Part shown: one piece after another, positions 1,305-47,905 of the stretch | How positions within the stretch are numbered: position 1 is the first letter of the stretch | Layout: the number at the start of each line of letters is the position of its first letter | Source: Isoetes taiwanensis | Taxonomy: Eukaryota; Streptophyta; Lycopodiopsida; Isoetales; Isoetaceae | Direction of reading: 5' to 3' | Length of the DNA stretch: 64,000 nucleotides | Assembly: GCA_021234155.1 (NCBI GenBank) | Contig: JAJEKV010000014.1 | Span: 642,949 to 706,948 of the forward strand | The notes under the pieces: model-generated | The model's database searches: none | Told to the model about the DNA's origin: nothing | Seen by the model: the letters and a program-made list of their open reading frames with translations, nothing else | Program-made: the position numbers and the translations under genes

Positions 1305-4300
1305 GAATAAAATAGAATAGAATAGAATAAAGTTAAGTTTTTATCGTCCGCGGAGACCAATTGGCCTATAGAACGCAAAAAGGAGGCACAACAAGCGTAT
1401 GACTGTCCAGTTTAAAAAACCCCTGCTTCGAAGGATTTTTGGGGAAAAAACTATAATACGATTAGGATTGTTGTTAAACTGTACACACGTCTATCATGAA
1501 CGGAAAGAAATATGTACATATATCAGGCAAGTGCCCAAGGACTGAGCTGATCTCGGTGATCCATGACCTCTTAAGGTATGATCCCAACATCCGTACCGAG
1601 GCCGTGCTCAACATCTCATGCAGGGGCTGGCCAGGACGGATTAGCTCAGCATAACGTATCTGAATGTCATCACATGTCACAAGGCTCTGAAGGGTGTGGC
1701 ATTCATCTTCCACAACTCCAACTTGGCATATTGACAAAGCCTCTCCTGGCGCGGCTCCCCAATCCATCTCCCCGTCTCAATTCGGAGATGGTGTACACCT
1801 GTGCAGGTAATGGATCCTCACTTTTTCAATGGGTAGATGAGTGCGCAGGTAGCATTGTGGGTCCCGCTACAACATGGGGTTTATATGATGTTGATAATGT
1901 GTCGTCTTGACCAGTTCAAGGTTATTGGCATTCCATAGCTTGTCGAGGAAGCATGTATCAAGGTATTGTCTGAGACTGTGGTGATCTACCTCCATTTGCA
2001 CTCGGATGCACCTTTGCTTCTACACAATCCATCGGGCCAGCCACTGAGCTCTCTTTTCCCACTAGCAAGCCTTTAGGCGTTGAGGCCTCATTGAGGCCAC
2101 AGTGTAAGCAAGGTTAGGGAGACGAGTATCATCCATATTGATCACCTTCTGGAAGTAGACGATGTGCCTGTCAAGGGCCCCCCTCTGAAGAGGCAAAAAA
2201 TATGTATCCTGCAATAGTATCTGGTATAGAACTGTATACTTTACCCACAGGGCTCGTGCCAAGAAAGCTTTTTGCACCTGTTCCAAGTCATTTCAAGTGG
2301 CGAGGAAAACCATCGGGCCCCAGACCTCGACCCCATACAAAAGCACAGGTTCTACTAGCACCTTGAATAGGTGCGACTGGTGGGCCCAATCATACAGCTC
2401 CATTTTGTGGCTATTGTTCTGCATTGCATAGAGTGCCTTCCAACCTGCTGCGGCTCGCAAGCGGATGGAATTGTCCTAGTTCATGGCAGACGGGAACTCC
2501 ACCCCCAAATATTTGTAAGCGGGTACCACTTCAACATTTTGGCCACGATAAGTGAGGATCAGTGCCCTTGGCTAGTGTGTAGACGATATGAGAACCACCT
2601 TGGTCTTGGTCAAGTTGACACACATGCCAGTCACCTGACAAAATGTGTCCAGGGCATCGAGATGGCATTGCATGTCCGCTTGAATGTGAGCCAGGAGGTC
2701 CACATCATCAGCATAGATCAGTTTCCTGGTGATTTGGTGTAGAAGTTAAGCCCCATTGCCTCCATTATCGGCAAACCATCTCTCTAAGTAATCAATGTAC
2801 AGGTCAAATAGTGTAGGAGAGAGAGAGGTCATCCCTCGCGGTCCCCGATACTGCTCTCAAAGGTTGGCCCGCTAGTTGTAAAAAGCCTGTGCATGTCTAA
2901 TATAACATGTACACTGCGCAAGTCTACGAAGCAGTAATATAGATCTTGTCAACGGTTCCTGTTGTCCTCAACCAGAGTTTGCAACGTGAAGATGTGATCA
3001 ATGGTTGAGTGCCTTGTCTTAAATCCTGCCTGCATGACTGTCTGCACTTCTGTTGTCTCTGCCCCTCTTGTCAACTGCTGCTCGAGGATCCCCGCGAGGA
3101 CCTTTGCAAATACTAAGCTAATCACGAAGGTCTGGAAATTGGCTGGACAGTGCGGGTCTCTTGCCTTGTAGATTGGGACAACCCTACTAGTGGTCCACTG
3201 CGGGGGGAAACCTTCCCGCAATGCGTTGTTGAACATGACAATTAGTGAACCGGTGCCATGGTTGGTCCTGCCCACTTGAGTAACTCCGCCTGCAATGCCA
3301 TCGAGGTTTGGCAATTTTCTATTTGGCTAGACACTGCAACCCTGCGCTACCTCCGCCTCTGTGATTTCCAGCACCGGGCCCTGCTGGGGGGGAGGAGGGG
3401 AGGTAATGCTGCCCGTGCACCCTCAGGATTGTAGAGCTGCTATAGTTATTGCCTTCACTGCTCGGGGTGATGTTTCTTGTGGGCAGCACTGACCTCCTGA
3501 GCACTCTTTGCCAGAAGGTCCTGGGATGACGTTCCAGGAGGAAGAACATTTCCTGTTGATGGGCCGCAATGTACCTAGCCTTTCTAGTCTTAAGGAAAGT
3601 GCGGTATTGCTTGACCGCGTTCGAGCATAGAGCAGGATCTGTAACTTGTCGGAGCCAGCATTTGTATTCTTTGCACTCAGCATCAAACCACTGGTTACGT
3701 GGAAAGGTCGTAGCTCCTGAGGTTCGCCGGGGATGACTTCTCCCCAAAACATCTTTCGGCAGCAGCTCCGAGGACATCAATGAGTCTGCCTGCCTTCTGC
3801 TCCAGCATTGAACACTGTGAGATGCTTGCCAGGTTCTCCTTAAGCATCTGGAAATAAGTATGAGCGTGCTCATAGTCATGTATGAGCTAGGGCATGCAAG
3901 GAGATGGTGTACATGTGGGTGGAACAATATACCAAGCCAGCTGCAAGTAGAGTGGCAGGTGGTCTGAGTCCACCTCCTCATCCCTACCATCTATTCCCAC
4001 TCGGAAATGCTTGATGAGATGCATGTCAATTGCTCGGCCACTGATACATAGTCCACCATGCTAGACCCGCCTCCCTGGTTCTCCTGCATGCAAGTATGCT
4101 GGCAAGAGGACGGCCACTGTGCTAGCCCATTGCAAATCACTAGGTCAAAGATACTGCAAAGCAACAAGAGCTACCTCCCATAGCGCGAGACCTGAATGTC
4201 AGCTGATGCCCGTGGCCAAGCTCCTTCTGAAAGACACAGTTGCAACACATCATCTGCCAAAGGGCCAAATCTCATTGGTTGTTCTGTGCCAGTGCATGCA

Positions 4301-4322
4301 TTGAAGTCTCCAACGAGCATGG
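1305..4322 (-). mobile_element. LINE, 5'-truncated, same family as the element at 61-64 kb
   Basis: A non-LTR retrotransposon reads on the minus strand from about 4322 to 1305. The 5' end falls inside the endonuclease domain: MLVGDFNA is encoded at about 4297-4322, and sequence upstream no longer matches the plus-strand family member at 63.1 kb. Reverse transcriptase follows, with YADD at about 2704-2720. The 3' end carries a CCGCGGACG motif near 1350 and a tail of TTCTA repeats (1306-1336) instead of a pure poly(A), as in several non-L1 clades. The peptide around 3550-3700 (RTSGATTFPRNQWFD) matches 63.6 kb (RTSGAATFPRNRWFD). The limits are estimates, as I could not confirm a target-site duplication. 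Confidence 0.8.
2700..4322 (-). pseudogene. LINE ORF2 remnant (endonuclease-reverse transcriptase)
   Basis: The remains of an ORF2 polyprotein that would nick target DNA and copy the LINE RNA. In order on the minus strand are the endonuclease core GDFNA (about 4300), a downstream SMVDYV-like strand (near 4050), a linker with RTSGATTFPRNQWFD (about 3680), and the reverse-transcriptase fingers at 2949-3314. The fingers read PPQWTTSRVVPIYKA, then QAGFKTRHSTIDHIFTLQ. The catalytic YADD lies at about 2704-2720. The frame is interrupted by stops and shifts near 4160 and 3314-3420 and between 2949 and 2720, so it cannot make an active protein. Confidence 0.8.
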
Positions 4323-4660
4323 CGAATCCGATAGATCTTATGAGAGGTTAGAATAGGAATCTCAACACTATTAAGCAGATAGCCTACTAGGTCATATGGA
4401 AGCACAGAAACAAAGTCACATGTTCAAATAGAAATGTGGATACTGCCTGGCTAAAAGTTGCTTTTCAAGTTGAATTGACTAAAATTGCAATGTCTCACAA
4501 AAATAAGACGCTAGATAAAGCAGCTGATGGCTGGCTAAAAATAAGAGAATTTAAAGGTCCTCTAAATGTTTTTAGTTGTAAGAGCATGTTAATTTCTGAT
4601 GACAATTTTTTGGCTTATAGAAATGCTGTTAGCATTGACGATCAGGACGAAATTTAGGCC
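4323..4660. other. Spacer between LINE and the 194-aa gene
   Basis: This 338-bp stretch is downstream of the minus-strand gene at 4661-5245 and probably holds its 3' untranslated region. A 73-codon plus-strand frame (4436-4657) with fairly protein-like composition (KTLDKAADGWLKIREFKG) ends four bases from the end of that gene. I do not recognise it, and it has no clear start context or promoter. It may be a fragment of another captured sequence. Confidence 0.35.
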
Positions 4661-5245
4661 TCAATTCGATGACCTCTCAGCTTCCTCTTCAGCTTGCTGC
4701 CTTTCCTGTGTTAAGTCGACGTCTATGATGTCCTCTACGTCCGACTCACGTCCTTCATCTTCCTCCTGCTCTGCTTCCCCGTACTCGAGAAGCATCTGCT
4801 CTTCTTCACCTGCTGCCATCACCATAGGCTCAATCTCTAGGGGTTGGACAGATGGTTCTTCTATCTGGATTTGGGCTCTATGGGATAGGAAAATAGCTAC
4901 AGCTGTGGTGTATGAGAAATATCTCCTCCTATTTACAGCTACTAACATATAATTAGGCAAGCGACTAGCCTTGTTTTCTAGGTACTTGTCTATCTTGGGG
5001 ATGTCTTGCAGAGCTGTACGAAGGGCCATGCTTGGAGCAAAATATCCCATGCAAGGGGGGAGTTCTACTAGAGAAGGCCTTATCTTGGCATGGAATTCAG
5101 CCATGATTTCTTGGTAATAGGGAATAGCATTGATGGTTGCATCCACATCAATCTCCTTCTGAAAGACGGCGAAGACTGAGTTGATGTCGGCCTCAGCCAC
5201 ATGAGCTGTGGCACTGTACCATCGCCTAAATGCAGATGTTGCCAT
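4661..5245 (-). CDS. Unknown 194-aa protein with acidic C-tail, partner of the H3-like cassette
   Basis: An uninterrupted 194-codon frame starting MATSAFRRWYSA. I cannot assign a family with confidence. Residues 1-130 are mixed alpha-helical in look. Residues 105-135 contain KASRLPNY, then VNRRRYFSYTTAVAIFL. This weakly resembles the end of the histone H2B fold (EASRLAHYN, then a REIQTAVRLLL helix). Residues about 136-190 are strongly acidic (GEEEQ, EEDEGRE, DVEDIIDVD), a composition typical of histone chaperones. The promoter, with a telobox, TATA box and paired upstream hairpins, is nearly the same as that of the broken H3-like cassette at 5958-7994, which implies common origin and co-regulation. 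The start is the first ATG, 111 bp after the TATA box. The family could equally be novel. The ORF itself is solid; the function is not. Confidence 0.7.
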   Translation of the reverse strand: MATSAFRRWYSATAHVAEADINSVFAVFQKEIDVDATINAIPYYQEIMAEFHAKIRPSLVELPPCMGYFAPSMALRTALQDIPKIDKYLENKASRLPNYMLVAVNRRRYFSYTTAVAIFLSHRAQIQIEEPSVQPLEIEPMVMAAGEEEQMLLEYGEAEQEEDEGRESDVEDIIDVDLTQERQQAEEEAERSSN

Positions 5246-5400
5246 GATACTAAGCCTGCTGGGGATATCAAACAGACGAAGAAGAACCTTTGGGAGCTAG
5301 AAAATCGCCTTGGAGTGAGGAGCAAAGGGGTAGGGTGCAAATGAGGGTTGTGGTCCTATTTATAGACAAAACCCTAATTTTGGAAAATTTTAGGGTTTGG
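5246..5400 (-). promoter_or_regulatory. Core promoter of the 194-aa gene
   Basis: On the minus strand, a telobox AAACCCTAAAAT (5387-5398) is followed by the TATA box CTATAAATAG (5356-5365) and the motif AAGGCGATTTTCTAG (5297-5311), then the ATG at 5245. The same three elements occur in the same order and at nearly the same spacing before the H3-like cassette (8118-7994). Teloboxes are common in plant promoters of S-phase and translation genes. Confidence 0.7.
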
Positions 5401-5538
5401 GGAATATCTATCATTCTAAGATGCTGCTATGCAAATCATAGGCAAAGTAAATTAAAGAGTGCATGCTAAGGATCCTAATGCAATAATTTTCATCTAATTT
5501 GGAGAAAGTTGAGGCAAGTTAGGTCAGATTTGGTCTGA

Positions 5539-5610
5539 CCACTCACACAGTGCGCGAGAGGTCATTCCAAAATTCTCGGATTGGCTCCTGGCGCACTCTG
5601 TGAGGGGTGG
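5539..5610. repeat. 72-bp imperfect hairpin, copy 1
   Basis: The outer arms CCACTCACACAGTGCGC and GCGCACTCTGTGAGGGGTGG are inverted repeats. An inner partly symmetrical core (GGTCATTCC against GGATTGGC) nests inside. It is almost identical to copies at 5743, 8216 and 8428. It lies about 174 bp upstream of the TATA box of the 194-aa gene. Confidence 0.85.
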
Positions 5611-5742
5611 GGCTCTATTTGGGTCAAGGATGACTCAATTTTTGCAATCTAAGGGTGAAATCCTACTTATCTCGATGAGTTAGGTCGGATTGCATGCTTA
5701 CTTTCTATATTTGGCCAAGTCTTGGCAAAGATCAGTGGTCGA

Positions 5743-5814
5743 CCACTCACACAGTGCGCGAGAGGCTAATCCAAAATTCTCGGATTGGCTTCTGGCGCAC
5801 TCTGTGAGGGGTGG
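5743..5814. repeat. 72-bp imperfect hairpin, copy 2
   Basis: The second copy of the CCACTCACACAGTGCGC / GCGCACTCTGTGAGG hairpin, 204 bp from copy 1. Together they form the upstream pair of the 194-aa gene. Confidence 0.85.
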
Positions 5815-5957
5815 GGTCAAAAACACTGAGTTTTGGTCCAAATTTAGTAATTCCAAGTGCAAATATCATTAGTACAACCTCATTACTTACAATCTTACAC
5901 TTTAACATGATCAAAACATAAATTTGTGTTTACAAAACGTTATATGTTTACAATAAA

Positions 5958-6230
5958 CTAGCAATCTTCTTTCTTAATAAATCTGGCTAGTTTCATGTCC
6001 CTAGGCATACAAGTTACTCTTTTATCATGTAGAGCACATGCTAGAGAGTCTTCAAAGTGTTGTACTAGCCTCTGCTCCGCTGCCTCCTGGTGTGCGAGTA
6101 ACATGTCATCTGTTACTCTCTTCGTGTTGTCAAACTCCTGCAAAATTTCGCGGGTCAGTCTCGTGAAGGCGGCTCGTGGAATCAACAACCCGTAGCTCCT
6201 CTGAAAATGGCGGATCTCCCGAGCAGCTCT
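5958..6230 (-). other. Histone H3 fold domain with CENH3-like residues
   Basis: The helices can be read in order. AlphaN is AREIRHFQRSYGLLI, alpha1 is RAAFTRLTREILQEF, and loop 1 is DNTKRVTDDM. Alpha2 is LLAHQEAAEQRLVQHFED, then LACALHDKR. Loop 2 and alpha3 are VTCMPRDMKLARFIKKE. H3 has REIRRYQKSTELLI, LVREIAQDF, LQEACEAYLVGLFEDTN, AIHAKR and VTIMPKDIQLARRI at the same places. EIRHFQ, LLIP-x-A-x-F and QEAAE are typical of plant CENH3. Loop 1, however, has the length of canonical H3, without the usual CENH3 extension. The domain frame itself has no stop. Confidence 0.88.
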
Positions 6231-6948
6231 CGCGAAGTATGAATCTACCTTTCTCTTCATTGGCTTTTTGGGGGTGCTGGTCTCTCTAGGGGCGGCTTCA
6301 AGGTGTTCTTCTTCGATAGCCTGCCTCCCTCCACGTAGGTCACCTTGTGCTCCTCGTAGTACTTCGAGTACTCCTCATACATTTTCATGTATTGGTTGTA
6401 CTCCTTGAGCTTCTTCCTGTACTCTTGCTCGTGCTTGAGTACATAGGATTCCCTTGCTGGCTTGGGCTTCTTAGAATCTGCCGTTGGCTTGGGCTATTTA
6501 GGGTAGGGTGGTGCTGCTGCTGCCGACTCCTCCTCTTCGGCGTCGACATTTGAAGGTCCCGAGCCTTCAGCTGGGCGGGGAACCCTTGTCTCCTCATTTG
6601 ACTCAGTGTCAGAGGGCGAAGAGGGCAGCTTGTCGGGCTCCCGCTCCGTTATGGTAACCCCTTTTGCCGGTGTCGATTTCATCTTTCGCCGGGCTTGCGC
6701 TCCAGCTTCTCTTCCTTCCTCTTACTCTTTGTTTCTCTCTTCTCCTTCCCCCTCTTCTCCATCTCCTTTAGTCTCTGCACCATTTTCTCTGTCATTTCTT
6801 CATCTTCGTCTTCTTCGTTCTGGCCCCCATCACCCTAGCTCTCAGGGTTCTCTTGCAGGCTCCTCTATATGTTGGGCGTGCTCCTCCTCCTCTTGGTGTT
6901 CCTGATCCTCCTCTTGGACATCAGGGTTCGCGTTCGGATCTTGCTCTC

Positions 6949-7879
6949 GGTGTTGTTTCGCACGTGCCGTATTTTACGTTTACGCACGTCCGTACCTTCC
7001 TCCGCGATTACTATCACGTACTATACCTATAAGTTGACGGTCAAATTAATCCCTTGTTTTATTAATGCCAGTACTTAGCATTATTAATGCATGCGATGCG
7101 TATGATACGTATTTTATGTAAAAAAAATCTTTCAAATGACATTAGACCAATACAATTGATAAAATTATACATTAGGAAAAATACATTATTATATATTATA
7201 GAATAGGTGTAAAAAAGACATTAGGAGGTTTTAGACATTAGGGAAATTATGGAATTTTAAAAAGAAAAAAAAAGCACATAATCTTCTTGCAAATAAAAAC
7301 CCAAAACCCCCGCGTTTTCCCCCTCTTTCTTCTTACCCTGGCTGTTGAATCGAAATGGAAATGGAGATGCAGACCCACCTTTCTCCTTGTTTTGTCATGG
7401 TAGGAGGCAAACCTTCTCCTTAATACTTTAATAGCTTGCATTCATGCCGGGGAAAGAAATACTGAGGTCAGGTGGTTAATAGCCGGATGCAACAAATGAG
7501 CAACAATTACTTGAATTTATTTGTCTGTGGGTGTAGATTGCAGACTAGAATATATAACTCTTAAATAGACATATTTTGGATTGAAAAATTTAAGAAATAC
7601 TTAATTTTCTAAAGTAATATATTCTGGTTCATTATTTAAAACTTGAAGTTCTTCATACTAGTTGTTATTGCAACTTTTTCAAGTGCAATACAAGAAATAA
7701 TAGTTCGAAAAATTACAGAAAGTACTTAACGTATAGTACGTAAAGTACGTATTTAATAAGTACTTTATAATTCCAAAAAACGTATTTAAAGTACTTTTTA
7801 AATGAAAGGTATGCATACGGTATTAATACGTTACGTACGTATAATACTCGTACCGTACTAAACGTACCTGACAACACTG
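6949..7879. mobile_element. hAT-like non-autonomous element in the H3-like gene
   Basis: The 931-bp insert is flanked by an 8-bp direct duplication TTGCTCTC (6941-6948 and 7880-7887), the hallmark length of hAT-type elements. The ends are inverted repeats: GGTGTTGTTTCGCACGTGCC at the left, and CAGTGTTGTCAGGTACG at the right read inwards. The subterminal DNA is rich in TACGT motifs. No transposase frame is seen. Removing the insert and one TSD copy restores a continuous glutamate-rich frame (RAERE joined to QDPNANP), which shows that it entered an existing coding exon. Confidence 0.82.
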
Positions 7880-7994
7880 TTGCTCTCTCTCGGCTCGCTC
7901 CTGAGCCTCCCTGGCCTTTTGTTGAGCAGCCAACACTGGCGCTGACGAAATTGTCGGGCACTACCATTCAAGCAGTTTGTTTGCTGCGAGCCAT

Positions 7995-8130
7995 GTTTTG
8001 AAATAGCTTGATCGCCTTCCGGGCGCCTAAAAATCGCCTTTTTGGATGGAGGGCAGCTAACTGGAGAAGGGAAGTGAAAATGAGGAACCCTAATGGTCTA
8101 TTTATAGGTCTGGGGATTTTAGGGTTTGGA
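7995..8130 (-). promoter_or_regulatory. Core promoter of the H3-like cassette
   Basis: On the minus strand lie a telobox AAACCCTAAAA (8117-8127), the TATA box CTATAAATAG (8098-8107) and AAGGCGATTTTTAG (8027-8040), then the ATG at 7994. The TATA-to-ATG distance is 104 bp, against 111 bp in the sister cassette, and the element order is the same. Confidence 0.72.
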
Positions 8131-8215
8131 CCTGCAATTTCATGTTGTACAATTCTGCAAGGTATTAGTGTATGTAGGATAAATACATTAGGTTTGTTTA
8201 GGCAAAAAGTGTCCA

Positions 8216-8285
8216 CCACTCGCACAGTGCGCGAGAGGCCATTCCAAAAATCTCGGATTGGCCCTGGGCGCACTCTGTGAGGGGT
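8216..8285. repeat. 70-bp imperfect hairpin, copy 3
   Basis: The same hairpin as at 5539 and 5743 (CCACTCGCACAGTGCGC / GCGCACTCTGTGAGG), with the inner GGCCATTCC against GGATTGGCC symmetry better preserved. It lies 109 bp upstream of the H3-like TATA box. Confidence 0.85.
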
Positions 8286-8427
8286 CACCCCTTTTTTACT
8301 CTAATTTTCAATTTATAAGGAGTTTCTTAGTGTTATAACATGCAAATATAGCTAAAATTGAAGGATTAAGCTATCCTGCACCATCAAATTACATAATTAT
8401 GCATCTATCTAGGTCAACATGGGTCCA

Positions 8428-8497
8428 CCACTCACACAGTGCGCGAGAGGCCATTGCAAAAATCTCGGATTGGCCCTGGGCGCACTCTGTGAGGGGT
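8428..8497. repeat. 70-bp imperfect hairpin, copy 4
   Basis: The fourth hairpin copy, 212 bp from copy 3. It completes the pair upstream of the H3-like cassette, mirroring the 204-bp spaced pair upstream of the 194-aa gene. Confidence 0.85.
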
Positions 8498-8677
8498 CAC
8501 ACCTTTTTGGCCATAATTTTGCAGGGTTTTGCTAAAAATTCTTACTAACTTAGCATTATTCTACTTGCTGCACTAGAGATTGGAAAAAATTTCCCAATTT
8601 TTTGAGGTTCATGTTTGGGTGGTTATTCCCAAGACTAGAAGTCTACTGTTAGTCCTAACAGGGAATGGTCAGTGCTC

Positions 8678-8697
8678 GATCTTGGTCTACCAAGATC
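8678..8697. repeat. Perfect hairpin in the retroelement leader
   Basis: GATCTTGG-TCTA-CCAAGATC is a perfect 8-bp stem with a 4-base loop, next to the primer-binding site. As RNA it could form in the leader of the minus-strand retroelement. Confidence 0.5.
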
Positions 8698-8699
8698 AT

Positions 8700-8711
8700 G
8701 CTCTGATACCA
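8700..8711 (-). promoter_or_regulatory. Retrotransposon primer-binding site (initiator tRNA-Met)
   Basis: The minus strand reads TGGTATCAGAGC, the standard plant LTR-retrotransposon primer-binding site complementary to the 3' end of initiator tRNA-Met. It begins one base after the end of the LTR at 8713-10357. This polarity puts the internal region of that element on the left, over the histone-like cassettes. Confidence 0.8.
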
Positions 8712-8712
8712 C

Positions 8713-10357
8713 TGTGATGTCCCCTACTTCCTCTACGATGCTCCCATCGTATCAGAAGGCAAAGTTCATCCCCCTGACAGCCAAACTGGCAGGGGCTATC
8801 CACCTGTCACCAATCCCAAGAGATGGGCCAGCACGGAAGATTGGATGGGTCATTTGCCCCGTCTTCCTTCGGGTCGACCTAGCTGCGAAAGTGCAAATAA
8901 ACATGAGCACATAACATCAATACATCAATAAAGTCACCCCAAAGGGTGAATACATCACAATATAACAAGAGCAACATCATCAACATCAGCAATCAAAGGG
9001 GATCCTACCCAGGGCTCAGACTCATGGGGGATCGATTGATGGCTTGGGCCTCCAGAAGTCAATGCAGACCGAATTCATGGCAAATAGATTGGGCTGGCAT
9101 AAGAACATGGCTGTTGGGTAGTCCATTCCATCCGTCCCTCCCGTCAGGGAAGATGCCCTCCGGACCGCGCAAGGTGGTCGCCTATTACGCGGCTCACTGG
9201 GACTCTTTTGATATCTGCTTTTTCCTCTTCCGCTTAGCAAAGCCAGCCCCCTGAGTGCACACTTTGCAGAGTAGGTTGAAAAGTATTGGGACCGGACTAT
9301 AGCCTGCCGGGTGCATAGCCAAGAGGGCTACTGCTGGGTTGCATCTCCCCAGCCCCGATGAGGCAGGAGGAGAGTAACCTCCCCTCCAGAGGCATGCATG
9401 CCCATCACAGGCGGCTAGAGGGCCACTGCCCTTATTCGACTTGAACCCCATTGAAGGTGACGCATCACCCAAGAGGTGTCGAGCTCATGCCTTGCCCACA
9501 CGCAGTGGCAAACCATTAAGCCTAGCCCACTGAGATCCCTGGTAGGCTTTACACACCAGAGGGATCAATCTGTGATGGGACAAGTCCCCCTTATCCCTCG
9601 GTCTAGCCCCGCCACCCACAACCAGGCGGGCTCCTATGCACGGGCCATATTAATTGGGAATTAATGAGGCTATCTAGGATCATCTGCTACGGAGGCTTTT
9701 AGGGTCTCTATCCCCCTTCCCAATACATAAGAGAGCACAGAGTGGAATCATCATCATCATAAAGAACTGAAATGTATAATATCTAACCTATCTACCTAAA
9801 CATCCAGAGTTAGGTTCCTTTGTTAGAGCTTGTGACCTCGGAATCTATAAGGCCTCTAAGGCTGAACTAACATGCTAAACCAACTCATTGCCAGACTAAA
9901 ATGCGGCATTGCACAACAGAATGACCATTTACCTGATCCCTGACTCGCTCCTCCTTTTCGGAATGCGTCCATACCTTCGTTCAGGCCGAAGGCGGCTGCT
10001 GCTGGAAGATTTGTTGTGCAAATGCAGCTTTTCGGAGCCTGGCAATGTGAATTAGGGTCTTGGCTTGGCCAGAATGATCCAAGGAAACCCTAATTGCGAA
10101 AAGGAGAAAGGTTTAGGGTTTAAGGAAAGCCCTTATATGGGGACTTTTAAGGTTAGGTTAACATTGGCCAAATGGGGTTTTTCCATTTGGCAATGGGGGT
10201 TTATAGTTGTATATGTTTATTAAACATGCACAACATACGAGGTTGCCCCCTAGGTGCAACCCTTTACGGTTCGCCCGTACTTGTCCTGATGACATGTATG
10301 TGTGACGTGGCAGTATAATATACGTATTTGGATCGTATATTATACTAGAACGTCACA
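8713..10357 (-). mobile_element. LTR (5' LTR by polarity) of a retroelement on the minus strand
   Basis: About 1.64 kb of LTR, starting TGTGACG (minus strand, 10357) and ending CATCACA (8713), with a primer-binding site directly adjoining. It is highly similar in inverted orientation to 33574-35328 and more distantly to 10915-12010 and 46329-47905. Shared landmarks are GCGGCCTGTGCAC, GACACCTCTTGGGT and CGATGGGAGCATCG. The first 57 bp (10301-10357) form a palindrome. Short reading frames within it are not genes. Confidence 0.85.
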
Positions 10358-10914
10358 CAAACTTAGCAAAATGTCAAATGAAATAATAGATATAGAGACT
10401 CTTGCTACAATGGTCTATATCAATTTCATTACAAAGTTAAGCCTGTCGAAATTCAATGATATAGACCAATACTTTAACCACAAAGTCTATCACAACATTT
10501 ATCTTCTATTAACTGTACATCCGACAGCCCAAGCTCTGATTGATGGGAATCTTCAATCAGCAACCTGTATCAACCCGATGAACCCATCTGTCTATTCATT
10601 TTATTGTTATACTCATTGCTCCGGCTATTAAGCCAAACCAAATGCTCCATATCCATTTTTGGTTTGAACTATTATAGAACACCATGTATATCTTTATCCT
10701 AATAATGCCCTGAATATCTTCGGCCCTTTTTATTTCATATAGATTAAATATAACTCTTAACCCAACCATATAACCTAGGTCTACTGTTGAGACCATATAT
10801 ACTGATAACTTCATATACATGTTTTCTTCAACCACATGCAGTATCTATAAGCCCATTACTTAGATGCATTCTTTTGTGTATACATTGATTCTACATGATA
10901 TAATCTTATCAGTA
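10358..10914. other. AT-rich intergenic stretch
   Basis: I see no gene or named repeat. Short reading frames on both strands lack a recognisable domain. Confidence 0.5.
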
Positions 10915-12010
10915 TGAATAGTTGGATGATTAGATTCTATTTTATGCTTTATTTGAGATTATGATGGATGTTTTGTATGTGATTGTTCTCTCTTTCTGTT
11001 TCTCCTGTGTGTATGGGTTAAAGGGAGGTAAAGACTTAAAAGGCTACCTAGGAATAGAGATGCTCTTAGTTAGAAACCCTTAAATCCCATTAAATGCGGC
11101 CTGTCCACAAGAGCCCTCCTGGTTGTCGATGATATGATATGGCTGAGCACCAAACAAGAATCATAGTGGTGAAGTGGGGGTGGGACCTTACCTAACGTGG
11201 CTACAAGGCTCCCTATTGCGGCTGAATCTATAGTCGGTCATTGCGTATGGGCCGAGTTTGGGTCTGACACCTCCTGGGTCACATGATATGTGCCGATAAG
11301 GACGTCCTGGGCTCGATGTGCGCACTACGGTGGCCTATGGATTTTGAGGGTTTCAATCCGGTACGAATGCGTGGTTGCCAATGGGGCCACGATCCTCTAG
11401 CCACCCATGGAAGCACCATGCTCTGGGAAGGATTCCTCCTTCCCTGCCTCATTGGACTGGGGAGATGTAACTCATAGGGTGAATCCATGAGATTGCGTAT
11501 ATGGAAGGCTACAACCATGCCATAGCATGACTCAACCTATCTGCAAAGTGTGCACAGAAGGGGCAGATGAAGTGGACTACCCTAGCCATTGTTCTATACC
11601 AGCCAACGCCATTGCCACTATTCTTGTCTGTTGGTATTCGGAGGCCCTGCCTGTCAGTTGACACCATTGAATCTGAACCAAAGATTAGACCCTTCATTTA
11701 TGATGCATTTGTTATGTTTCCTACTATTACGATGTGTTGTGCTATTGATGGATGTCCCATCCTTAAAGGTGGCATATTATTTTATATATTATGTGCTTGG
11801 TGCTAACTTTTATGTACGCTTCTGCTATATAGGATTCCCATAGAAGGCATGGGGCGAATGACACCTCCATGTCCTTCACTCGGACACTTGGCCATCACAA
11901 GTGGTCCGAGGCAGACGGGGGGGTCCTTCTGTGGTGATGTGGTTGCCATGGGAGGGGAATTTCCAGTATTTGCACGATGGGAGCATCGTATAGGTTCAGG
12001 GAGCGTCACA
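10915..12010 (+). mobile_element. LTR fragment, 5'-truncated
   Basis: It aligns by eye with 46770-47890 (GATTATGATGGATGT, AAATCCCATTA-ATGCGGCCTGT, TATAGTCGGTCA, ATTCCCATAGAAGGCATGGG). It ends with CGATGGGAGCATCG and GGAGCGTCACA at 12010, as the other LTRs of this family do. The start of the LTR is missing, so this is a relic. Confidence 0.7.
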
Positions 12011-18861: not shown

Positions 18862-19392
18862 TTGTATTCCAAGATGGGAAATATGGATGAGCAAATGGAT
18901 GAGATGAAGGCTTTTTGTTTCAAGATTAAAGAAATTGCTTCACGACGACGCTCGTGGATGAAATTGGTAGACCACACTGAATTCCTTAAGCCTGATTCCT
19001 TCAGTGATGCATCAATCCGCATTCGTAAAAATATCCACTATTTTAGAGTGAATTATATGATATTCCTTGTGGTGCTTATTATTTTATGCCTATTATGGAA
19101 CCCAGTGTTCTTGTTAGTGATGGTTTTTATGGTAGGAGCATGGATCTTTATGTATGTGTATAGGGCTGATCCAGTTATATTGTTCGATCGACCAATTGGT
19201 GAAAAGGAGGTGTTTATAGCCATGAGTATTGTAACGTTGGTGGTGTTCTTTGTTCTTACAAGTATTGGAGTCTTCCTTGTCTCCACTCTTCTTGTAGGTT
19301 TCCTTGTTATTTGCGTACATGGAGCTTTTAGAGTCCCAGATGACTTGTTTGTTGAGGAACAAGAATCCACATCATCATTTTATCCTGTTTAA
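18862..19392 (+). CDS. PRA1: PRA1 family protein (prenylated Rab acceptor)
   Basis: A 176-codon, uninterrupted, apparently intronless frame. PRA1 proteins bind prenylated Rab GTPases and help sort them between ER, Golgi and endosomal membranes. The N-terminal 50 residues are hydrophilic and face the cytosol. Residues about 30-60 carry RSWMKLVDHTEFLKP, then a RIRKNIHYFRVNY segment that fits the conserved R-x-x-x-N-x-x-Y-F-x-x-N-Y motif of the family. Two long hydrophobic hairpins follow (about 62-95 and 112-150), separated by the short polar loop YRADPVILFDRPIGEKE, as in known PRA1 topology. The C-terminus (VPDDLFVEEQE) is acidic, also typical. A second Met at codon 5 (MGNMDEQM) may be the true start. 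Plant PRA1 genes are often intronless. The gene looks functional. Confidence 0.85.
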   Translation: MYSKMGNMDEQMDEMKAFCFKIKEIASRRRSWMKLVDHTEFLKPDSFSDASIRIRKNIHYFRVNYMIFLVVLIILCLLWNPVFLLVMVFMVGAWIFMYVYRADPVILFDRPIGEKEVFIAMSIVTLVVFFVLTSIGVFLVSTLLVGFLVICVHGAFRVPDDLFVEEQESTSSFYPV

Positions 19393-32830: not shown

Positions 32831-33573
32831 GAATCGATAGGAGAGTGGAAGGTAGATTAAAAAGTCTACTTCCATCCCACGGAAGTAGACGACCTTGAGA
32901 GATAAGAGGTCATTCAGGCATGCATTAATAGGAAAGCACCTCTAGTCAATGCCTACCACGGGAAGGACGTCATCCTTCACGCCCAAATACGGGAAGGACG
33001 CCACTCTTCACGCCAAAGGCAACTAAAGGTGTAGGCATGGGTGATCATCCTAGGCATGATAGGGCGCTGTCTCCACGGCCAAGATGGAAGAAACATAATC
33101 TTCCTACGCCGGGAGATTAGTCTTGCATCCATGTAAATTGTAATTAATGGGTGGTTCCCTAACAACCAACCTTATAATAATTAAATGTATACTGACGTAG
33201 TGTTGGACCTAGGCCAATAGGAGAGTTTAGCGGCAGGAAGGTCGCACTGCAAAGACTTGGCAACACATATTTTGTCATAATGTGTTGTAAGGAAACGATA
33301 TGGAACCTTAATTAGAGAATTTTGGAACTATGTTAATAATAATGGTATAAGCCATAAAGTTTTGTGAATAATAGACGATAAAGCAAGAGGATGAAAGAAC
33401 CTCTTATCATAGTATAATATTAAACAAGGATGTGTTATGATAAATTAAAATATTAACTTGGGGTAATTATGTTGTAAAATTATCTGTATCAAATGTAATT
33501 GCAGGATACGCAGGTTTCCAAGGTGGGGAGACGCGTGATGCTGAGGACAACATCAATTCAAGGTGGTGAGATT
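32831..33573 (+). other. Gypsy 3' untranslated region and polypurine tract
   Basis: Non-coding end of the element. It contains short duplicated segments (GGTCGGCTCGTCACCGAA twice near 32796-32834; GGGAAGGACG with CACTCTTCACGCC repeats near 32960-33010). It ends with AATTCAAGGTGGTGAGA just before TGTGACG of the LTR. Confidence 0.65.
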
Positions 33574-35328
33574 GTGACGTTCCAGTATAATATACGATCC
33601 AAATACGTATATTATACTACCACGTCACACGTACATGTCATCAGGACAAGTACGGGCGAAACGTAAAGGGTTGCACCTAGGGGGCAACCTCGTATGTTGT
33701 GTATGTTTAATAAACATATCCCGGGGATACCACTTAGTGTATAAGGGATACGCCATGTGCGAGGAAGGGGTCATAAAAAACCCCTTCGTATACGCTTTTT
33801 TTAAGGTCTAAAAAACCCCTTTCCGTATGAAATACATCACTAGAGATTGGATTTTTTAAGGTCTAAAGAACCCCTTCCCGTACATATTCGTACGCTTTAG
33901 GTTAAAAAAAACCCCTTATCGTCCACTCACATGGTATATACGGCCTACACTATGTGAATCCCCCGGGAAACATATACAACTATGAACCCCTATTGCCAAA
34001 TGGCAAAACCCCATTTGGCCAATGTTAACCTAACCCTAAAAGTCCCCATATAAGGGCTTTTCTTAAACCCTAAACCTTTCTCCTTTTCGCAATTAGGGTT
34101 TCCTTGGGTCATTCCGGCCAAGCCAAGACCCTAGTTCGCATTGCCAGGCTCTGAAAAGCTGCATTTGCACAACAGATCTTCTAGCAGCAGCCGCCTTCGG
34201 CCTGAACGAAGGCATGGACGCATTCCGAGGAGGAGGAGCGAGTCAGGGATCAGGTAAATGGTCATTCTATTGTGCAATGCCGCATTTTAGTCCGGCAATG
34301 AGTTGGTTTAGCATGTTAGTTCAGCCTTAGAGGCCTTATAGATTCCAAGATCACAAGCTCTAACAAAGGAACCTAACTCTGGATGTTTAGGTAGATAGGT
34401 TAGATGTTATTCTACATTTCAGTTCTTTATGATGATGGTGATTCCACTCTGTGCTCTCTTATGTATTGGGAAGGGGGGTGGAGACCCTGTAGCAGATGAT
34501 CCTAGATAGCCTCATTAATTCCCAATTAATGCGGCCTGTGCACAGGAGCCCGCCTGATTGTGGGTGGCGGGGCTAGACCGAGGGATAAGGGGGGTTTGTC
34601 CCATCACAGATTGATCCCTTTGGTGTGTAAAGCCTACCAGGGATCTCAGTGGGCTAGGCTTAATGGTTTGCCACTGCGTGTGGGCAAGGCATGAGCTTGA
34701 CACCTCTTGGGTGATGCGTCACCTTCAATGGGGTTCAAGTCGAATAAGGGCAGTGGCCCTCTAGCCGCCTGTGATGGGCATGCATGCCTCTGGAGGGGAG
34801 GTGACTCTCCTCCTGCCTCATCGGAGCTGGGGAGATGCAACTCAGCAGTAGCCCTCTTGGCTATGCACCCGGCAGGCTATAATCCGGTCCCAATACTTTT
34901 CAAATGTGCACGGGAGGGGCGAATGGAGTGGACTACCCAATAGCCATGTTCTTATGCCAGCCCAATCCATTTGCCATGAATTCGGTCTGCATTGACTTCT
35001 GGACGCCCAAACCGTCAGTCGATCCCCCATGAGTCTGAGATCTGGGTAGGATCCCCTTTGGTTGCTAATGTTGATGATGTTGCTCTTGTTATATTGTGAT
35101 GTATTCACCCTTTGGGGTGACTTTATTGATGTATTGATATTATGTGCTCATGTTTATTCGTGCTTCCGCAGCTAGGTCAACCCGAAGGAAGAACCCATCC
35201 ACTCTTCCGTGCTGGCCCATCTCTTGGGATTAGTGTCAGGTGGATGGCCCCTGCCAGTTTGGCTATCAGGGGGATGAACTCCACCTTCTGATACGATGGG
35301 AGCATCGTAGAGGAAGTAGGGGACGTCA
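33574..35328 (+). mobile_element. LTR, probable 3' LTR of the gypsy element
   Basis: It begins TGTGACGTTCC after a polypurine tract and ends GGGGACGTCA at 35328. It is the same family as the inverted LTR at 8713-10357, with near-identical blocks throughout. The first ~58 bp are palindromic. It contains a 248-bp MITE (33720-33967). About 53 bp later a copia-type primer-binding site follows, so the right part may belong to the copia element. See the finding on the junction. Confidence 0.75.
33720..33967. mobile_element. 248-bp MITE inside the LTR
   Basis: It is flanked by the 8-bp duplication AAACATAT (33712-33719 and 33968-33975). Terminal inverted repeats are CCCGGGGATACCACTTAGTG at the left and CCCGGGGGATTCACATAGTG read inwards from the right. 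The LTR copy at 8713-10357 lacks it and shows the empty site. It is hAT-like by TSD length. Confidence 0.88.
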
Positions 35329-35403
35329 TAGTTTGCAAGTGTGTCTGATAATAATAATAATCTCTATAGCTGTATTCTTCATTGGTATCAGAGCCAGGTT
35401 GCA

Positions 35404-36329
35404 ATGTCTACTAGATTTGGAGCAAATCTACTGAATGCTATAGAGGTTTTTAAAGGTGAAGGAGGTTTTCAAATTTGGAAACAAAGTATAAGAGAAGTTC
35501 TAGAGTTGAAAATTTGTGGTATTTGATAGATGAAAATACTGTCAGACGTACCAGTGCAAATGTAACTGGAAGGACATCTAGTGCAGGGGAAACAAGCTCA
35601 AGTTCAACTTCTGGGGAATCTGTTATTGGAGGATCTAGAGGATCCGCAATAGTTACAGTTACATCAGAAGTAAGTGATGAAAGATTAAATATTATGGAAG
35701 CTCAAGCTATTATATCATGCAAAGTTGGATCAGTAATCAAGCTAAGAGGTATGTCCCCAAAGGATATGTGGCAATACATGGTGAAGGCGTATGAGGCAAA
35801 ATCATCATCTCAAATAGACGTTTTGGAAAAACAACTTAAACAGCTTAAACTATATCATAAAGATGCTCTTACAGAATTCCTTGAGAAATTTGATTCTATT
35901 ATCGTAGATCTAGAAGGAGCAGGCATTATTTTGAATAAAGAATACCAGATCTTAGAAGTTGCAAGGTCAGTTTCACATAGGGATCATTTAGCTACATTAC
36001 TGACGAATGCGGCCAGATCAAAGGAACATGCAATCCAGATGTTACGAACAGAGTTTGAGCAAAGTACCATTGGGCGTGATGATGATGATCAGACATCAGA
36101 AGTCCTGTATAAAGGTAAATTTAAAGCTAAAAAGAAGGGTAGCTCAAGTGGCTCTAATAAAGGCAAAATCGGGCCATGCTATCACTGTGATAGTTATGGT
36201 CATTTGAAAAGTGACCGCCCGAAGTTGGGAAGAGATTATAATTGTGAAGGAAAAGGGCAGTTGGCTGTGAACTATCCAAGCCCTAAAGTGGCAGGGGCAA
36301 AAATACAACTTCTCGAGAAGAACATATAA
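35404..36329 (+). pseudogene. Copia gag
   Basis: It starts MSTRFGANLLNAIEVFKGEG eight bases after the primer-binding site, shifts frame near 35520, and continues with MWQYMVKAYEAKSSSQ, LEKQLKQLKLYHKDALTEF and FDSIIVDLEGAGI (UBN2-type gag core). The zinc knuckle reads CYHCDSYGHLKSDR, so the fourth ligand Cys is replaced by Arg. The product could not pack RNA normally. Confidence 0.8.
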
Positions 36330-36438
36330 ACAGATGTAGAGGCAGTGCAAGAAGGAATCCAACAATTAATCTTGCACAGGAAACATGAGGAGAAGAAGAC
36401 GAACAAAATGAGGATGAAGAGGTATGTAAGTCTGAATT

Positions 36439-37510
36439 ATGTGCTTTGATACAAGCAAACAATGTAATCATAAACTCTTGATTTTAGATTCAGGAGCTGA
36501 AAGGACAGTGATGTGTTCATCAAAGCTGCTCAAAGAATGCAAAGTAAATAATGGTGGACATGTTCAGCTGGGGAATGGTGATCTCCAAGAGATTAAAGAT
36601 TGTGGGATGCTTGAACTTTTCAATCTTGAAGGGAAAGTAGTTAAATTAAAAGAAGTGCTGTGCGTTCCTAGTCTAGTTAGGAACTTGATTTCCATATCTC
36701 AACTTGTAGATAAAGTCTTGTTTGAAAGACTTCAATGTAAGGTCATGATGGATAATAAAATCGTGTTTATTGGAAGACGGGTTGGAAATTTGTTTGGTTT
36801 AGATGTTGAATCCTGTTTGCCAAGTAATAATCTTATAACAATTCCTACAATTGAAACATGGCATGAGAGGTTATGCCATATAAATTCAAAGGCGGTTGAG
36901 CTGTTAATTAAAAAGGGATATTGAGTGCGCAACAATGCAAAACTGAAAATTTCAAATGTGCTGGATGTATTCTTGGGAAAAATAGCAAACTTCCATTTAA
37001 AAAGTCATCATACAGAGTGCTGGATCTTGTGCATACAGATTTGTGCAGACCCTTAAATATCACAAGCTTATCAGGCAAAAAATATTTCATTTTTATCAAT
37101 GACTTTAGCAGAAAGTGCAAGGTTTACTACTTAAAGTCTAAAGATTTAGCATTTGAGGCCTTTAAGGATTATCTGAATGAGGTGGAAGTGGAAACAGGTA
37201 GAAAAATTAAATGTCTACGATCAGATAGGGGAGGAGAATACTTATCAAGTGAATTCAAATAATACTGCAGGAATCATGGAATCAAATGACAATTAACTTG
37301 CAGATTTTCCCCTCAATAAAATGGAGTTGCAGAGAGGACAAATCGTACAATATTGAATGCCATAAGAAGCATGCTGAAATTTGCTGGCCTGCCTAATTTT
37401 TTGTGGAAAGAAGCAACAAAGGTTGCTGTATATGTAGAAAATTTGCTGCCATCTATAAGTACCATGGATACTGTGCCCGACATGCTTTGGACGGGGAAAA
37501 TACCTACTGG
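36439..37510 (+). pseudogene. Copia protease-integrase
   Basis: The protease site LLILDSGAERTVM is followed by the VQLGNGDLQEI and LVRNLISISQL segments. GAG-pre-integrase is WHERLCHINSKAVELLIKKGY. The integrase begins CAGCILGKNSKLPFKKSS, DLVHTDLCRPLN, then FINDFSRKCKVYYLKSK, then CLRSDRGGEYLSSEFK and NGVAERTNRTILNAIRSML. Stops interrupt it at 36922, 37260, 37287 and 37317. The last three replace the Gln, Arg and Gln expected in the family. Confidence 0.85.
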
Positions 37511-38515
37511 GTGGCTTGAATACAATAGGGAAGATGAAGCACTAGAAAAGGAAGATACTGTGTTTCGATTACATTGGATAAATTTGTTTCTGCGTGCTCT
37601 TCATTAGATTCAGATAATTCAGAAGAGTTATCTGAAATAAGCTCATAAAGAATATGAGGATGAGCTGTTGAAGGGTTGCATGGCATCTCCGAAGAGGATA
37701 GCTATAATTAAAATACCCCTAGAAGCTCTGAAATGATAATGAAGAGATAGAATCCAAAGGTACTTCCACTTATTTGTCAGTTGATGAAGTGGCTCTAGTG
37801 GATGAAAAGTTGCTTAGTGCGCGCGCGTGCGCATGTGAGATCTGATCCCCTCTTCCCAAGGGGGGGGGGATAAAAGCTAATATGCCTTCAAGCGTTCTTT
37901 ATCTGAAATCCTTGTGAATATGTGACAACTTTTTTATATCTGAAATCCTTTTTGAATTGTAATTGTATATCTACCTTCCAATGATCCTTCGTATAATACT
38001 TTTGATTAGGTTACTTATAAAAAACACAACAGTTTCTCCTTCTGACTATACATGGCATTTCTTGCAATTCAGCATAGCATGGCAGATAATTGCAGATATG
38101 AAACATGAAATGCTTGTTAGCATATATAATGAATAAGCAGATAAAGTCGAGTTAAAAAAGAATTGCTTATTAACTAATCCAAGGGCTCTCTGCCTTCTCT
38201 TCTAAAATAAATTATTCATCTGGATGAGGTAAAACTTGTTCGCAGCTTGCATTTCTTGTAAAGTGATGGCCTTTCACTATTTACAATTTTACAAAAAATT
38301 TGTTTGCATCGATGTCAAAACAGTGTTATCCATTCAAGACACAAGCTTCTAATATAGATCCAGTGCCTACTAGTATACCAAAGACGAAATCACCTGCTTC
38401 GTACAATAACTATAATAGAAATTCGTTGAACCTGATAGTTTTCTCCAGGTTCTCGCTCAAATGGATGATGCCTGAAGAATTCTTCAAGTCACCATTTGCA
38501 AGAAAATGTCTAAGG
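37511..38515. other. Spacer with Z-DNA-type and G-run tracts
   Basis: No gene. It holds an alternating GCGCGCGCGTGCGC run (about 37818-37832) and a G9 run followed by ATAAAAG (about 37861-37876). The latter could be a decayed polypurine tract of the copia element, but no LTR follows. Confidence 0.45.
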
Positions 38516-44269: not shown

Positions 44270-45760
44270 TCAAACCACACTTGCAATATCGGCAAGGGTT
44301 GAGTTTATGTTGTCCATGACATCCTTCTCAACCTCTTCTTCATTGCCTTGCAAGTTCTGTTGCCCCGCATCATTCCCATCATTCTTTTGACCTCTCCCTC
44401 TCAAAGGATACTTTCTAGTAACCTTGGCTTTGGTCCGAGCAGTTTGCTTTGGCCTTGCCACCTCCTTTCTTTTGCTAGTCTCTTCTTTATTCAATGTCTT
44501 CTTTTCCTTCCATGTCTTCTTCACAACCACATCAGCTTTTTTTTTTTTTATCTTGCTTTTGCTTCTTCCGGTTGGAGTGTGAAGACATACTCAATCTCCT
44601 CATCACAGGCGACCTTTGTTTCTTCTGAAATTTCTTTGCCACTTCTTAAGCTGCATTGGGGTCACCTTTCTTTGAACATTCTACGTTTCAATATCAGAAT
44701 CATCCCTGACATGTCTCAACCTTCTCAATCTGCTAGTAGAAGGGGACTTCAATTGGTCAGATTGCACATCTACTACATCTTCAATTGCCCGACCTGTATT
44801 TGATCCCCAAATCTGATTTCTTGAAACTTAATCTAGGATCAAAGGAAGCAACCTGCTCAAGCGCCTTGAGAATGCTCAAGCCAAGCTCAACATAAAGGTC
44901 TTCGGGAACTAGGCATTCACATTTCAAACATTTGCCTTCCTTTAACAAGGCGGCACACATCACATGATATTCATGTGAGCAATCAAGAATTAAAGAAAGC
45001 TTGTACTTATCGGAAATCCCAAACCACAAGCATTACAAAAATTTTGTAAAAACACGGAAGATTTCTCTTGATGGTGTTGATGCGAGAAAGTTGAATTCTT
45101 GATGTCTCCTAGACTGTCAAGGTTTTTGCATATTCCTTGGTGCCTTGATGTCACCATCCGGTTGAATTAATTACGCCTCCAAATTTCCCTTCTTCAAAAT
45201 CAGATCACGGATCTCCAGTGCATAATGACTCCATGGACTCTGCGGCATACTCCTCAAATATTAACTTTCTCTCTCCAACTCCTTTATTTCTGTTCTACTT
45301 CTCATGAATGAGCAGGCCCTCTTTCAACAAGCGGTGATTTCAATTGTTCCATCTTTGTGTGTTTTTTTTGGTTAGCCTTTTTAAAAATTTTGTCATTTGA
45401 CTTTTCTTAATTTTGCCGGGCTAACAACTATATCCTGCATTTCTTTTTCCATCGAGTTTTCTTGATCATAAGTTTTTCAGATTCTCTGTCACTATCTGTA
45501 GATTAGGTTTCAAGTTTGTCCGATCAAGTTTACTACTTGCTACCTCTTTTGCTGGCGAGGCTTTGAATCAATTTCTTGTTTCTCTTTAAAACCACGAACT
45601 CTCGGCCTGCTATATGCACGTAAACCATAACACATGCACCATATGCAGCCCAATTGATTTGATGGCCTTCGGGATCTTCAAGACCTTCTTGGCAATTTTC
45701 CCAAGCAAATGCAAGGGCAAATTGCTTCACGACTTCATTGTTTGAAACCCCATCACGGAT
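44270..45760 (-). pseudogene. Further minus-strand coding-like segments in the transposon
   Basis: Three blocks. 45533-45730 gives KQFALAFAWENCQEG, then INWAAYGACVMVYVHIAGRE. 44781-45029 gives LILDCSHEYHVMCAALLKEG, then KCLKCECLVPEDLYVELG, a cysteine/histidine pattern resembling a small RING-like or zinc-binding fold. 44270-44530 is lysine-rich with ARPKQTARTKAKVTRKY. They may be exons of the same captured gene as the FCP1-like domain or a second transposon protein. I do not recognise the product. Confidence 0.35.
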
Positions 45761-46328: not shown

Positions 46329-47905
46329 TGTGATGTTCCACGTATTTATATGCCTTTTTAGGTATAAATACATGACACGTCACTATGAATAATTAATGGT
46401 GCATTAATTATTCATAAGCTAAGGTTAGCTATGTTAACTCATTAATTAAAAAGGTGGAAACCTAACCCTAAACCCTAATTCTAATTTAGGATTTAACCTA
46501 ATATTAAAAAGACTAAAATACTAAATTACTTATAGCATTGACACTTGGCCCAAATCGATTGGGCAAGGGAGAGTTGCTAACTTGGGACACTCAAATTGGG
46601 CCTTCCAACCCCCAATTTACCCCAATTCAATTTGGGAGCAATTGGAGAAGGAGGAGGAGCTTATTCAACCAGCAGGGCATGGAGAACCTAAGAGATGGGA
46701 GATCTGTTCAAATACCGGTTAGTAGGCTTAGTTAGCTTGAGATTTTAGTTAGGAACTAACCCTTGCTTGTTAGATGGATGATTAGTCTCTCTATTTTATG
46801 TTCTAGATGAGATTATGATGGATGTATTAGATATGAATGCTCTCTCCTTTTTTTTTTCCCTCCTGTGATATGCTCCTAGCTAGAACCCCTTAAATCCCAT
46901 TAGATGCGGCCTGTGCATAAGAGCCCACCGGGCTGTAGATGTTATGATGTGGTTTAGCACCAAATAATGGTTACTGCTGGTGAAGTGGGGGCGGAGCCTT
47001 GCTGAGCGTGGCTACTGGGGCTCCTACAGTATGCTAGACTTATAGTCGGTCACTAAGTGTGGGCCAGGTATTGGTCTGACACCTCTTGGGTCGCAGGATA
47101 CGTGCCTATAAGAACGTCCTGGGCTCGGTATAGGTTTAGAGGGGTAAGTCGGGTATGGATGCATGTGCACCTGGGTGGCACGTATGCTCTAGCACACCCA
47201 TGGAACCACTGTGATTCTGGAGGGGATTCATCCCTTTCCTGCCATCGGACCGGGGAGATGTAACTTGGAGTAGTCTCATAGCGTGACTCCATGAAATTAC
47301 GTCTCCGACAGGTTATAACCATGCCATTGCATGATCCAGAGGGGCGGATGGAGTGGACTACCCTAGCTACTGTTCTATGCCAGCCAATGCCATTATAATT
47401 ATTCCATCTGCAGTTATCCAGAGACCATAGCCCCCACGAGTCTGAATCCTCATTTATGGTGCATTCCCTTTGTTATGTTGGTATTTTGTTGTTATTTGTA
47501 TTGATGATGATGGGCCACCCTTCATGGTGGCATATTACTTATTTGTATTGTTGCCAGGCCAGGTGCTGTAACGTTCCTAACCGACATGCCCTTAACCAAC
47601 TGGGCAAAACCGTCTAGACGTTTATGAGTAGTCGCTTCTACCCATTTATGCCGGTGTCTCGGGAACGCCCCACAGGCACATTCAAGGTTCGAATACTCGA
47701 GCGGTCTACCATGGGCCCGTTACAGGTGCTAACATGTATGTGCACTTCTGCTATATAGGATTCCCATAGAAGGCATGGGACGAATGACACCTATGTGTCC
47801 TTCGCCCGGACACTTGGCCATCACAAGTGATCTGCGTCAGACGGAGGGCCTTTTCGTGGTGATAGAGTCGCCATGGGAGGGGAATTTCCCTTATTTATAC
47901 AAGAA
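46329..47905 (+). mobile_element. Solo LTR related to the 8.7- and 33.6-kb LTRs, 3'-truncated
   Basis: It starts TGTGATGTTCCACG with a ~55-bp terminal palindrome and contains ATGCGGCCTGTGCA, GACACCTCTTGGGT and TTCCCATAGAAGGCATGGG. It stops being alignable near 47905 (GAGGGGAATTTCCC), before the CGATGGGAGCATCG end seen in the others, and passes into ACAAGAAATTTATCGCGGC, a repeat also at 22256. It carries an insertion at 47568-47722. Confidence 0.75.
47568..47722 (+). mobile_element. 155-bp insertion with tRNA-like boxes
   Basis: It is flanked by an 8-bp duplication CAGGTGCT (47560-47567 and 47723-47730). The ends are GTAACG and CGTTA(C), inverted. Inside are A-box-like TGCCCTTAACCAACTGGGC and B-box-like GGTTCGAATAC. 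The related LTR at 10.9-12.0 kb has the empty site (GTGCTTGGTGCTAAC). It could be a tiny SINE or a MITE. Confidence 0.7.

Follow-up and report, generated by a model that had tools for sequence, protein, structure and literature searches.

Features of the locus

The window, by which we mean the whole stretch of 64,000 nucleotides of Isoetes taiwanensis DNA that was analyzed, contains an H3-like gene and, as its downstream neighbor on the same strand, a second open reading frame that we call gene 2 (Table 1).

Table 1. Features of the H3-like gene, gene 2 and the adjoining LTR, in the order in which they are read on the minus strand
Feature	Position	Strand	Basis or remark
LTR copy A, starts TGTGACG	8713..10357	-	blastn and alignment to copy B, 33573-35328
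Primer-binding-site motif TGGTATCAGAGC	8700..8711	-	directly after LTR A
Hairpin module 1	8410..8520	-	repeat; folding z -4.86
Hairpin module 2	8199..8308	-	repeat; folding z -3.88
TATA-like CTATAAATAG of H3-like gene	8098..8107	-	direct reading; about 105 bases upstream of ATG
ATG and MARSKQTA, then TGA	7968..7994	-	direct reading, motif count
AT-rich tail interruption	6949..7879	-	hAT-like insertion candidate, or intron
Tail pieces, K/E-rich and Y-rich, with stops	6260..6948	-	two frames other than that of the fold
Open H3 histone fold	5958..6260	-	100 codons; Pfam, PDB and reference alignments
Hairpin module 3	5728..5826	-	repeat; folding z -9.14
Hairpin module 4	5522..5622	-	repeat; folding z -4.57
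TATA-like CTATAAATAG of gene 2	5356..5365	-	direct reading; common to both genes
Gene 2, open ORF with acidic end	4661..5245	-	194 codons; ORF list

The open reading frame that closes the H3-like gene matches the Pfam Histone family with 71.4 bits against a cut-off of 26.4, and H3 chains of the PDB align with its residues 12-98 (best E 5.9e-20); the H3 histone fold is thus present at full length and without gaps. It contains EIRHFQ, LLIPRAAF and QEAAE, and its loop 1 has the length of canonical H3 (87 aligned residues, 0 gaps). These results bear out much of the initial annotation, which had placed an H3-type fold about 2 kb downstream of the start on the same strand, had listed EIRHFQ, LLIP-x-A-x-F, QEAAE and a loop 1 of canonical length, had set an HMM search of the 6260-5958 frame as a check beforehand, and had read the gene as an H3 derivative. 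A structure model from the single sequence has helices at 2-23, 29-46, 51-76 and 86-99, which may stand in histone-like order, with low confidence (mean pLDDT 61.6). Searches against NCBIfam gave only matches below cut-off, among them an archaeal histone at 12.7 bits, and a protein search confined to candidates of about 55 to 175 residues, a range that excludes long-tailed relatives, passed one candidate through its word filter and found none significant. Neither the fold nor gene 2 has a second copy in the window.

The start, the tail and the decay of the gene

The string MARSKQTA spans 7994-7971 on the minus strand, with its ATG at 7994, and is directly followed by a TGA (7970-7968). When matches to MARTKQTA were counted in all six frames of the window and of 20 Markov-1 random windows, at least seven of the eight residues matched once in the window and never in the random windows, at least six matched twice and never, and at least five matched six times and 26 times, respectively. 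The MARSKQTA string exceeds chance expectation. It had been described as lying directly after a promoter; the ATG is in place, and the promoter is recognized by its motif, the TATA-like CTATAAATAG. A second string that resembles the H3 tail, ARPKQTARTKAKVTRK, lies at 44270-44530 (-) in an 86-codon ORF without a Pfam match, and its likeness is possibly due to chance; an ORF near this string has a weak match to NIF phosphatase (22.7 bits, cut-off 21.8).

Between the start and the fold there follow, in order, a short A/E/Q-rich piece, the AT-rich interruption, acidic and K/E-rich stretches and, next to the fold, one rich in Y, K and E. Frames 1 and 2 hold the K/E- and Y-rich pieces, which contain internal stops, and frame 0 holds the fold; on either side of the interruption the tail is in frame 1. 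Two open tail pieces reached no Pfam cut-off (DUF1825 matched weakly, below its own), and one tail piece compared with the PDB found only three chains, at E 0.34 to 0.95. All parts of the long-tailed H3 protein proposed in the initial annotation can therefore be found, namely the start, the K/E- and Y-rich pieces and the fold, but one long protein cannot be read from the present sequence: the TGA after MARSKQTA, the three frames, the stops and the interruption of about 0.9 kb rule it out, and no single intact ORF leads from the N-terminus to the fold. With its parts set apart by these stops, frame changes and the interruption, this copy of the H3-like gene is decayed and does not form one continuous coding gene.

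The same breaks could mean that what looks like one gene is a chance row of several, with start, tail pieces and fold each coming from a different one. We regard this as highly improbable, since strand and order are those of an H3, a single promoter motif precedes them and the frame is equal across the interruption. From the strand, the order and this agreement in frame we infer that they are the remains of one gene.

The interruption has a GC content of 0.321, compared to 0.515 in the adjoining 5958-6950. Its left edge reads CAG/GTACGT, which we take to be a donor-like site, and the interruption is possibly an intron given this edge. It also has an 8-base repeat, GAGAGCAA, with GTGTTGT and ACAACAC near the ends, and an 8-base duplication is given as a trait of hAT elements in one report (PMC6710886). 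The interruption is accordingly listed as a candidate hAT-like insertion. An insertion argued from terminal repeats alone was rejected as proof, as such structures are common by chance: the window has three, and 50 random windows gave 117, or about 2.3 per window. One of the three (33712-33975, +) corresponds to an additional stretch of about 256 bases in LTR copy B, with CCCGGGG ends and an 8-base repeat; LTR copy A lacks this stretch and thereby shows the empty site.

H3 or CENH3

The fold was compared with four hand-entered reference sequences (H3.1, H3.3, Arabidopsis CENH3 and CENP-A). It aligned with H3.1 at 80.5 bits (50.6% of 87, no gaps), with H3.3 at 78.2 bits, with Arabidopsis CENH3 at 71.2 bits (48.8% of 84, 2 gaps) and with CENP-A at 60.5 bits (47.1% of 87, 6 gaps). 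By score, the fold would thus be slightly closer to H3.1 than to Arabidopsis CENH3. A longer loop 1 is described as common among CENH3s (PMC4628103); in the alignment, loop 1 of the fold is no longer than that of canonical H3.

The likeness to plant CENH3 lies in EIRHFQ, LLIP and QEAAE, which the hand-entered Arabidopsis reference also has, and the difference lies in a loop 1 of H3 length that lacks W and in a score to CENH3 slightly below that to H3.1. Because of its H3-length loop 1 we have not filed the fold as a CENH3 despite the shared residues. The earlier suggestion that the protein is perhaps centromeric has lost its support, as the longer loop 1 described as common among CENH3s (PMC4628103) is missing and the scores lean slightly to canonical H3.

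Gene 2 and the repeated cassettes

Gene 2 resembles nothing in the collections searched: its best Pfam match is PH_BEACH at 15.7 bits (cut-off 27.5), NCBIfam gave no match, the PDB gave none up to E 1, and a protein search produced 123 candidates of which none was significant. What connects it to the H3-like gene is the DNA ahead of it, for the upstream regions of both genes have in common CCAAACCCTAAAAT, CTATAAATAG, CCTCATTT-CAC (with one base differing) and AAGGCGATTTT. The core of the hairpin modules occurs exactly four times in the window, twice ahead of each gene (0 of 100 shuffles), and for all four modules none of 200 shuffles folded as well. Rfam had no match in 4600-10400.

A promoter and hairpin modules repeated ahead of each gene could also belong to a multigene mobile element of a different kind, or to an old integrated DNA virus with repeated gene-start modules, into or beside which the gypsy LTR fell; in Pfam, moreover, neither gene is gag- or pol-like. 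This origin is very unlikely in our view, as a primer-binding-site motif lies directly after the LTR and a scan of viral contigs, aimed at close relatives of the fold, found six stretches that fit a pattern and confirmed none.

The LTR context

LTR copy A ends at about 8713 and matches copy B, at 33573-35328 (+), in three pieces with blastn identities of 94.8% over 946, 90.8% over 434 and 96.6% over 147 bases. The ORFs upstream of copy B contain reverse transcriptase, RNase H and integrase zinc-binding domains by Pfam, and the integrase core before it scores 32.5 bits, just short of the cut-off of 32.6. From this domain order we take copy B to be the 3' LTR of a Ty3/gypsy element. The motif TGGTATCAGAGC, presumably a primer-binding site of the plant initiator-Met tRNA type, occurs twice in the window, after LTR A and at 35383. 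LTR A and its motif therefore have the arrangement of a gypsy-family 5' LTR followed by its primer-binding site, and the H3-like gene is the next recognizable gene on the minus strand.

Other mobile sequences lie in the window. Copia-type gag and pol pieces occupy 35383-37607 (+), behind the second TGGTATCAGAGC and directly after LTR copy B. LINE-like remnants were seen by eye at 1390-4320 (-) and 63117-63475 (+), where the scanned ORFs matched no Pfam family; 3960-4320 and 63117-63475 share 68% identity across 362 bases. A further repeat is common to 11057-11971 and 46867-47896, in pieces, with 71% and 86% identity.

We consider it an even chance that the locus is a Ty3/gypsy-family element in a plant genome that carries an H3-derived gene and a second gene in repeated cassettes, the cassettes and LTR A then being parts of one element. 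This reading is favored by the H3 fold and the MARSKQTA start; by the tail keeping its frame across the AT-rich interruption; by LTR A matching the LTR behind the reverse transcriptase, RNase H and integrase zinc-binding ORFs and being followed by the primer-binding site; by LTR, primer-binding site and both genes standing on one strand; and by the promoter and leader motifs that both genes share, together with the four hairpin cores. It is weakened by what blastn and Pfam failed to find. The window has no third LTR copy that could be the 3' LTR of copy A, and the element may extend beyond base 1. Nine minus-strand ORFs between the primer-binding site and base 1 were scanned with Pfam, only the fold among them reached a cut-off, and none had a gag or pol domain. 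Copy B has no counterpart of the cassettes by blastn and is itself without a detectable 5' LTR. The single occurrence of the fold and of gene 2 in the window, and the lack of a confirmed or significant relative of the fold in the viral-contig scan and in the length-limited protein search, also count against the reading. Lacking gag and pol domains in the ORFs scanned below the primer-binding site, the element with LTR A would have to be incomplete or else non-autonomous, unless it runs past base 1. The initial annotation's proposal that the gene is carried by a mobile element thus gains from the position behind an LTR and a primer-binding-site motif, yet falls short of proof with no 3' LTR seen in the window.

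The missing 3' LTR and the missing gag and pol domains would also be expected if a decayed host gene of H3 or CENH3 type, or a retrocopy of one, merely adjoined a truncated gypsy LTR, with the cassettes lying outside the element; the broken state of the H3-like gene and the crowd of nested elements in the window agree with this as well. We hold it to be somewhat unlikely, for an adjacent pair of genes with a common promoter, leader and hairpin modules is unlike a lone retrocopy, and LTR, primer-binding site and genes all share one strand.

Comparison with known systems and possible function

Element-borne H3-like genes are already published for fungal hAT transposons, and the LTR context here differs from them (PMC3538342, PMC6710886). 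A hAT transposon of Pyrenophora tritici-repentis carries the H3-like gene H3L next to an ORF whose function is unknown, and transcripts are described (PMC3538342). The likeness would be an H3-like gene together with an ORF of unknown function in a mobile element, and this precedent favors the reading of the Isoetes locus as an element (PMC3538342). The H3L element is a fungal DNA transposon with terminal inverted repeats and several near-identical transcribed copies (PMC3538342), whereas the Isoetes locus, seen as a single decayed copy, has a plant LTR context, hairpin-promoter modules and a long charged tail. A second report describes how a hAT transposon captured an H3 in Pseudocercospora fijiensis, and extends this to five further genomes (PMC6710886). 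As proposed for Isoetes, an H3-like sequence has decayed within a mobile element, amplified in that case; the sequence there is the host's H3 coding sequence, in contrast to the LTR context and diverged fold found here (PMC6710886).

Among plant LTR elements, Retrosat2 with its ORF0 and Retand with its antisense ORFs are published cases in which ORFs of unknown role have been added (PMC3485330, PMC11963269). If the Isoetes locus is an LTR element, it shares such an additional gene with them; they differ in that a histone fold is absent from both abstracts. A literature search at the level of titles and abstract beginnings found, among the papers listed, no LTR retrotransposon with an H3 gene, and the word "histone" is absent from the main text of a review on gene capture by plant elements (PMC13317346).

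If the locus is such an element, it would be a gypsy-family one, perhaps non-autonomous, in which a pair of additional genes directly follows the 5' LTR, each cassette consisting of two hairpin modules, a TATA-like promoter, a similar leader and an ORF. The first cassette would once have encoded an H3-derived protein in which a long charged tail joined an H3-like N-terminus to an H3 fold; the present copy is dead. We would expect an intact form of this protein to enter nucleosomes as a partner of H4, and through its tail it could steer or mark chromatin for the element's benefit, for example where the element's copies lie or where it inserts. The further proposal that a plant LTR family encodes its own long-tailed H3 variant and a partner protein from hairpin-promoter cassettes, altering nucleosomes on its own copies, is in our estimate unlikely.

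Should intact copies exist, a plant retrotransposon equipped with a histone would allow one to test how an element acts on host chromatin from inside the nucleosome, and also how H3 variants with CENH3-like residues originate; should there be none, the locus would be another captured and decayed host gene. The authors of the H3L work ask whether altered chromatin helps elements, so that the question of a chromatin benefit has already been raised for the fungal hAT (PMC3538342).

Two further ORFs of the window match protein families. One at 18862-19392 (+) matches the PRA1 family with 142.1 bits. The other, open at 57793-58596 (-), encodes a chlorophyll a/b-binding protein (Pfam, 175.3 bits); in a protein search that served as a control, nearly all of its named relatives among the 120 of 5761 that were listed belong to plants and green algae, including Ceratopteris and Adiantum. 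The presence of this gene points to a green plant.
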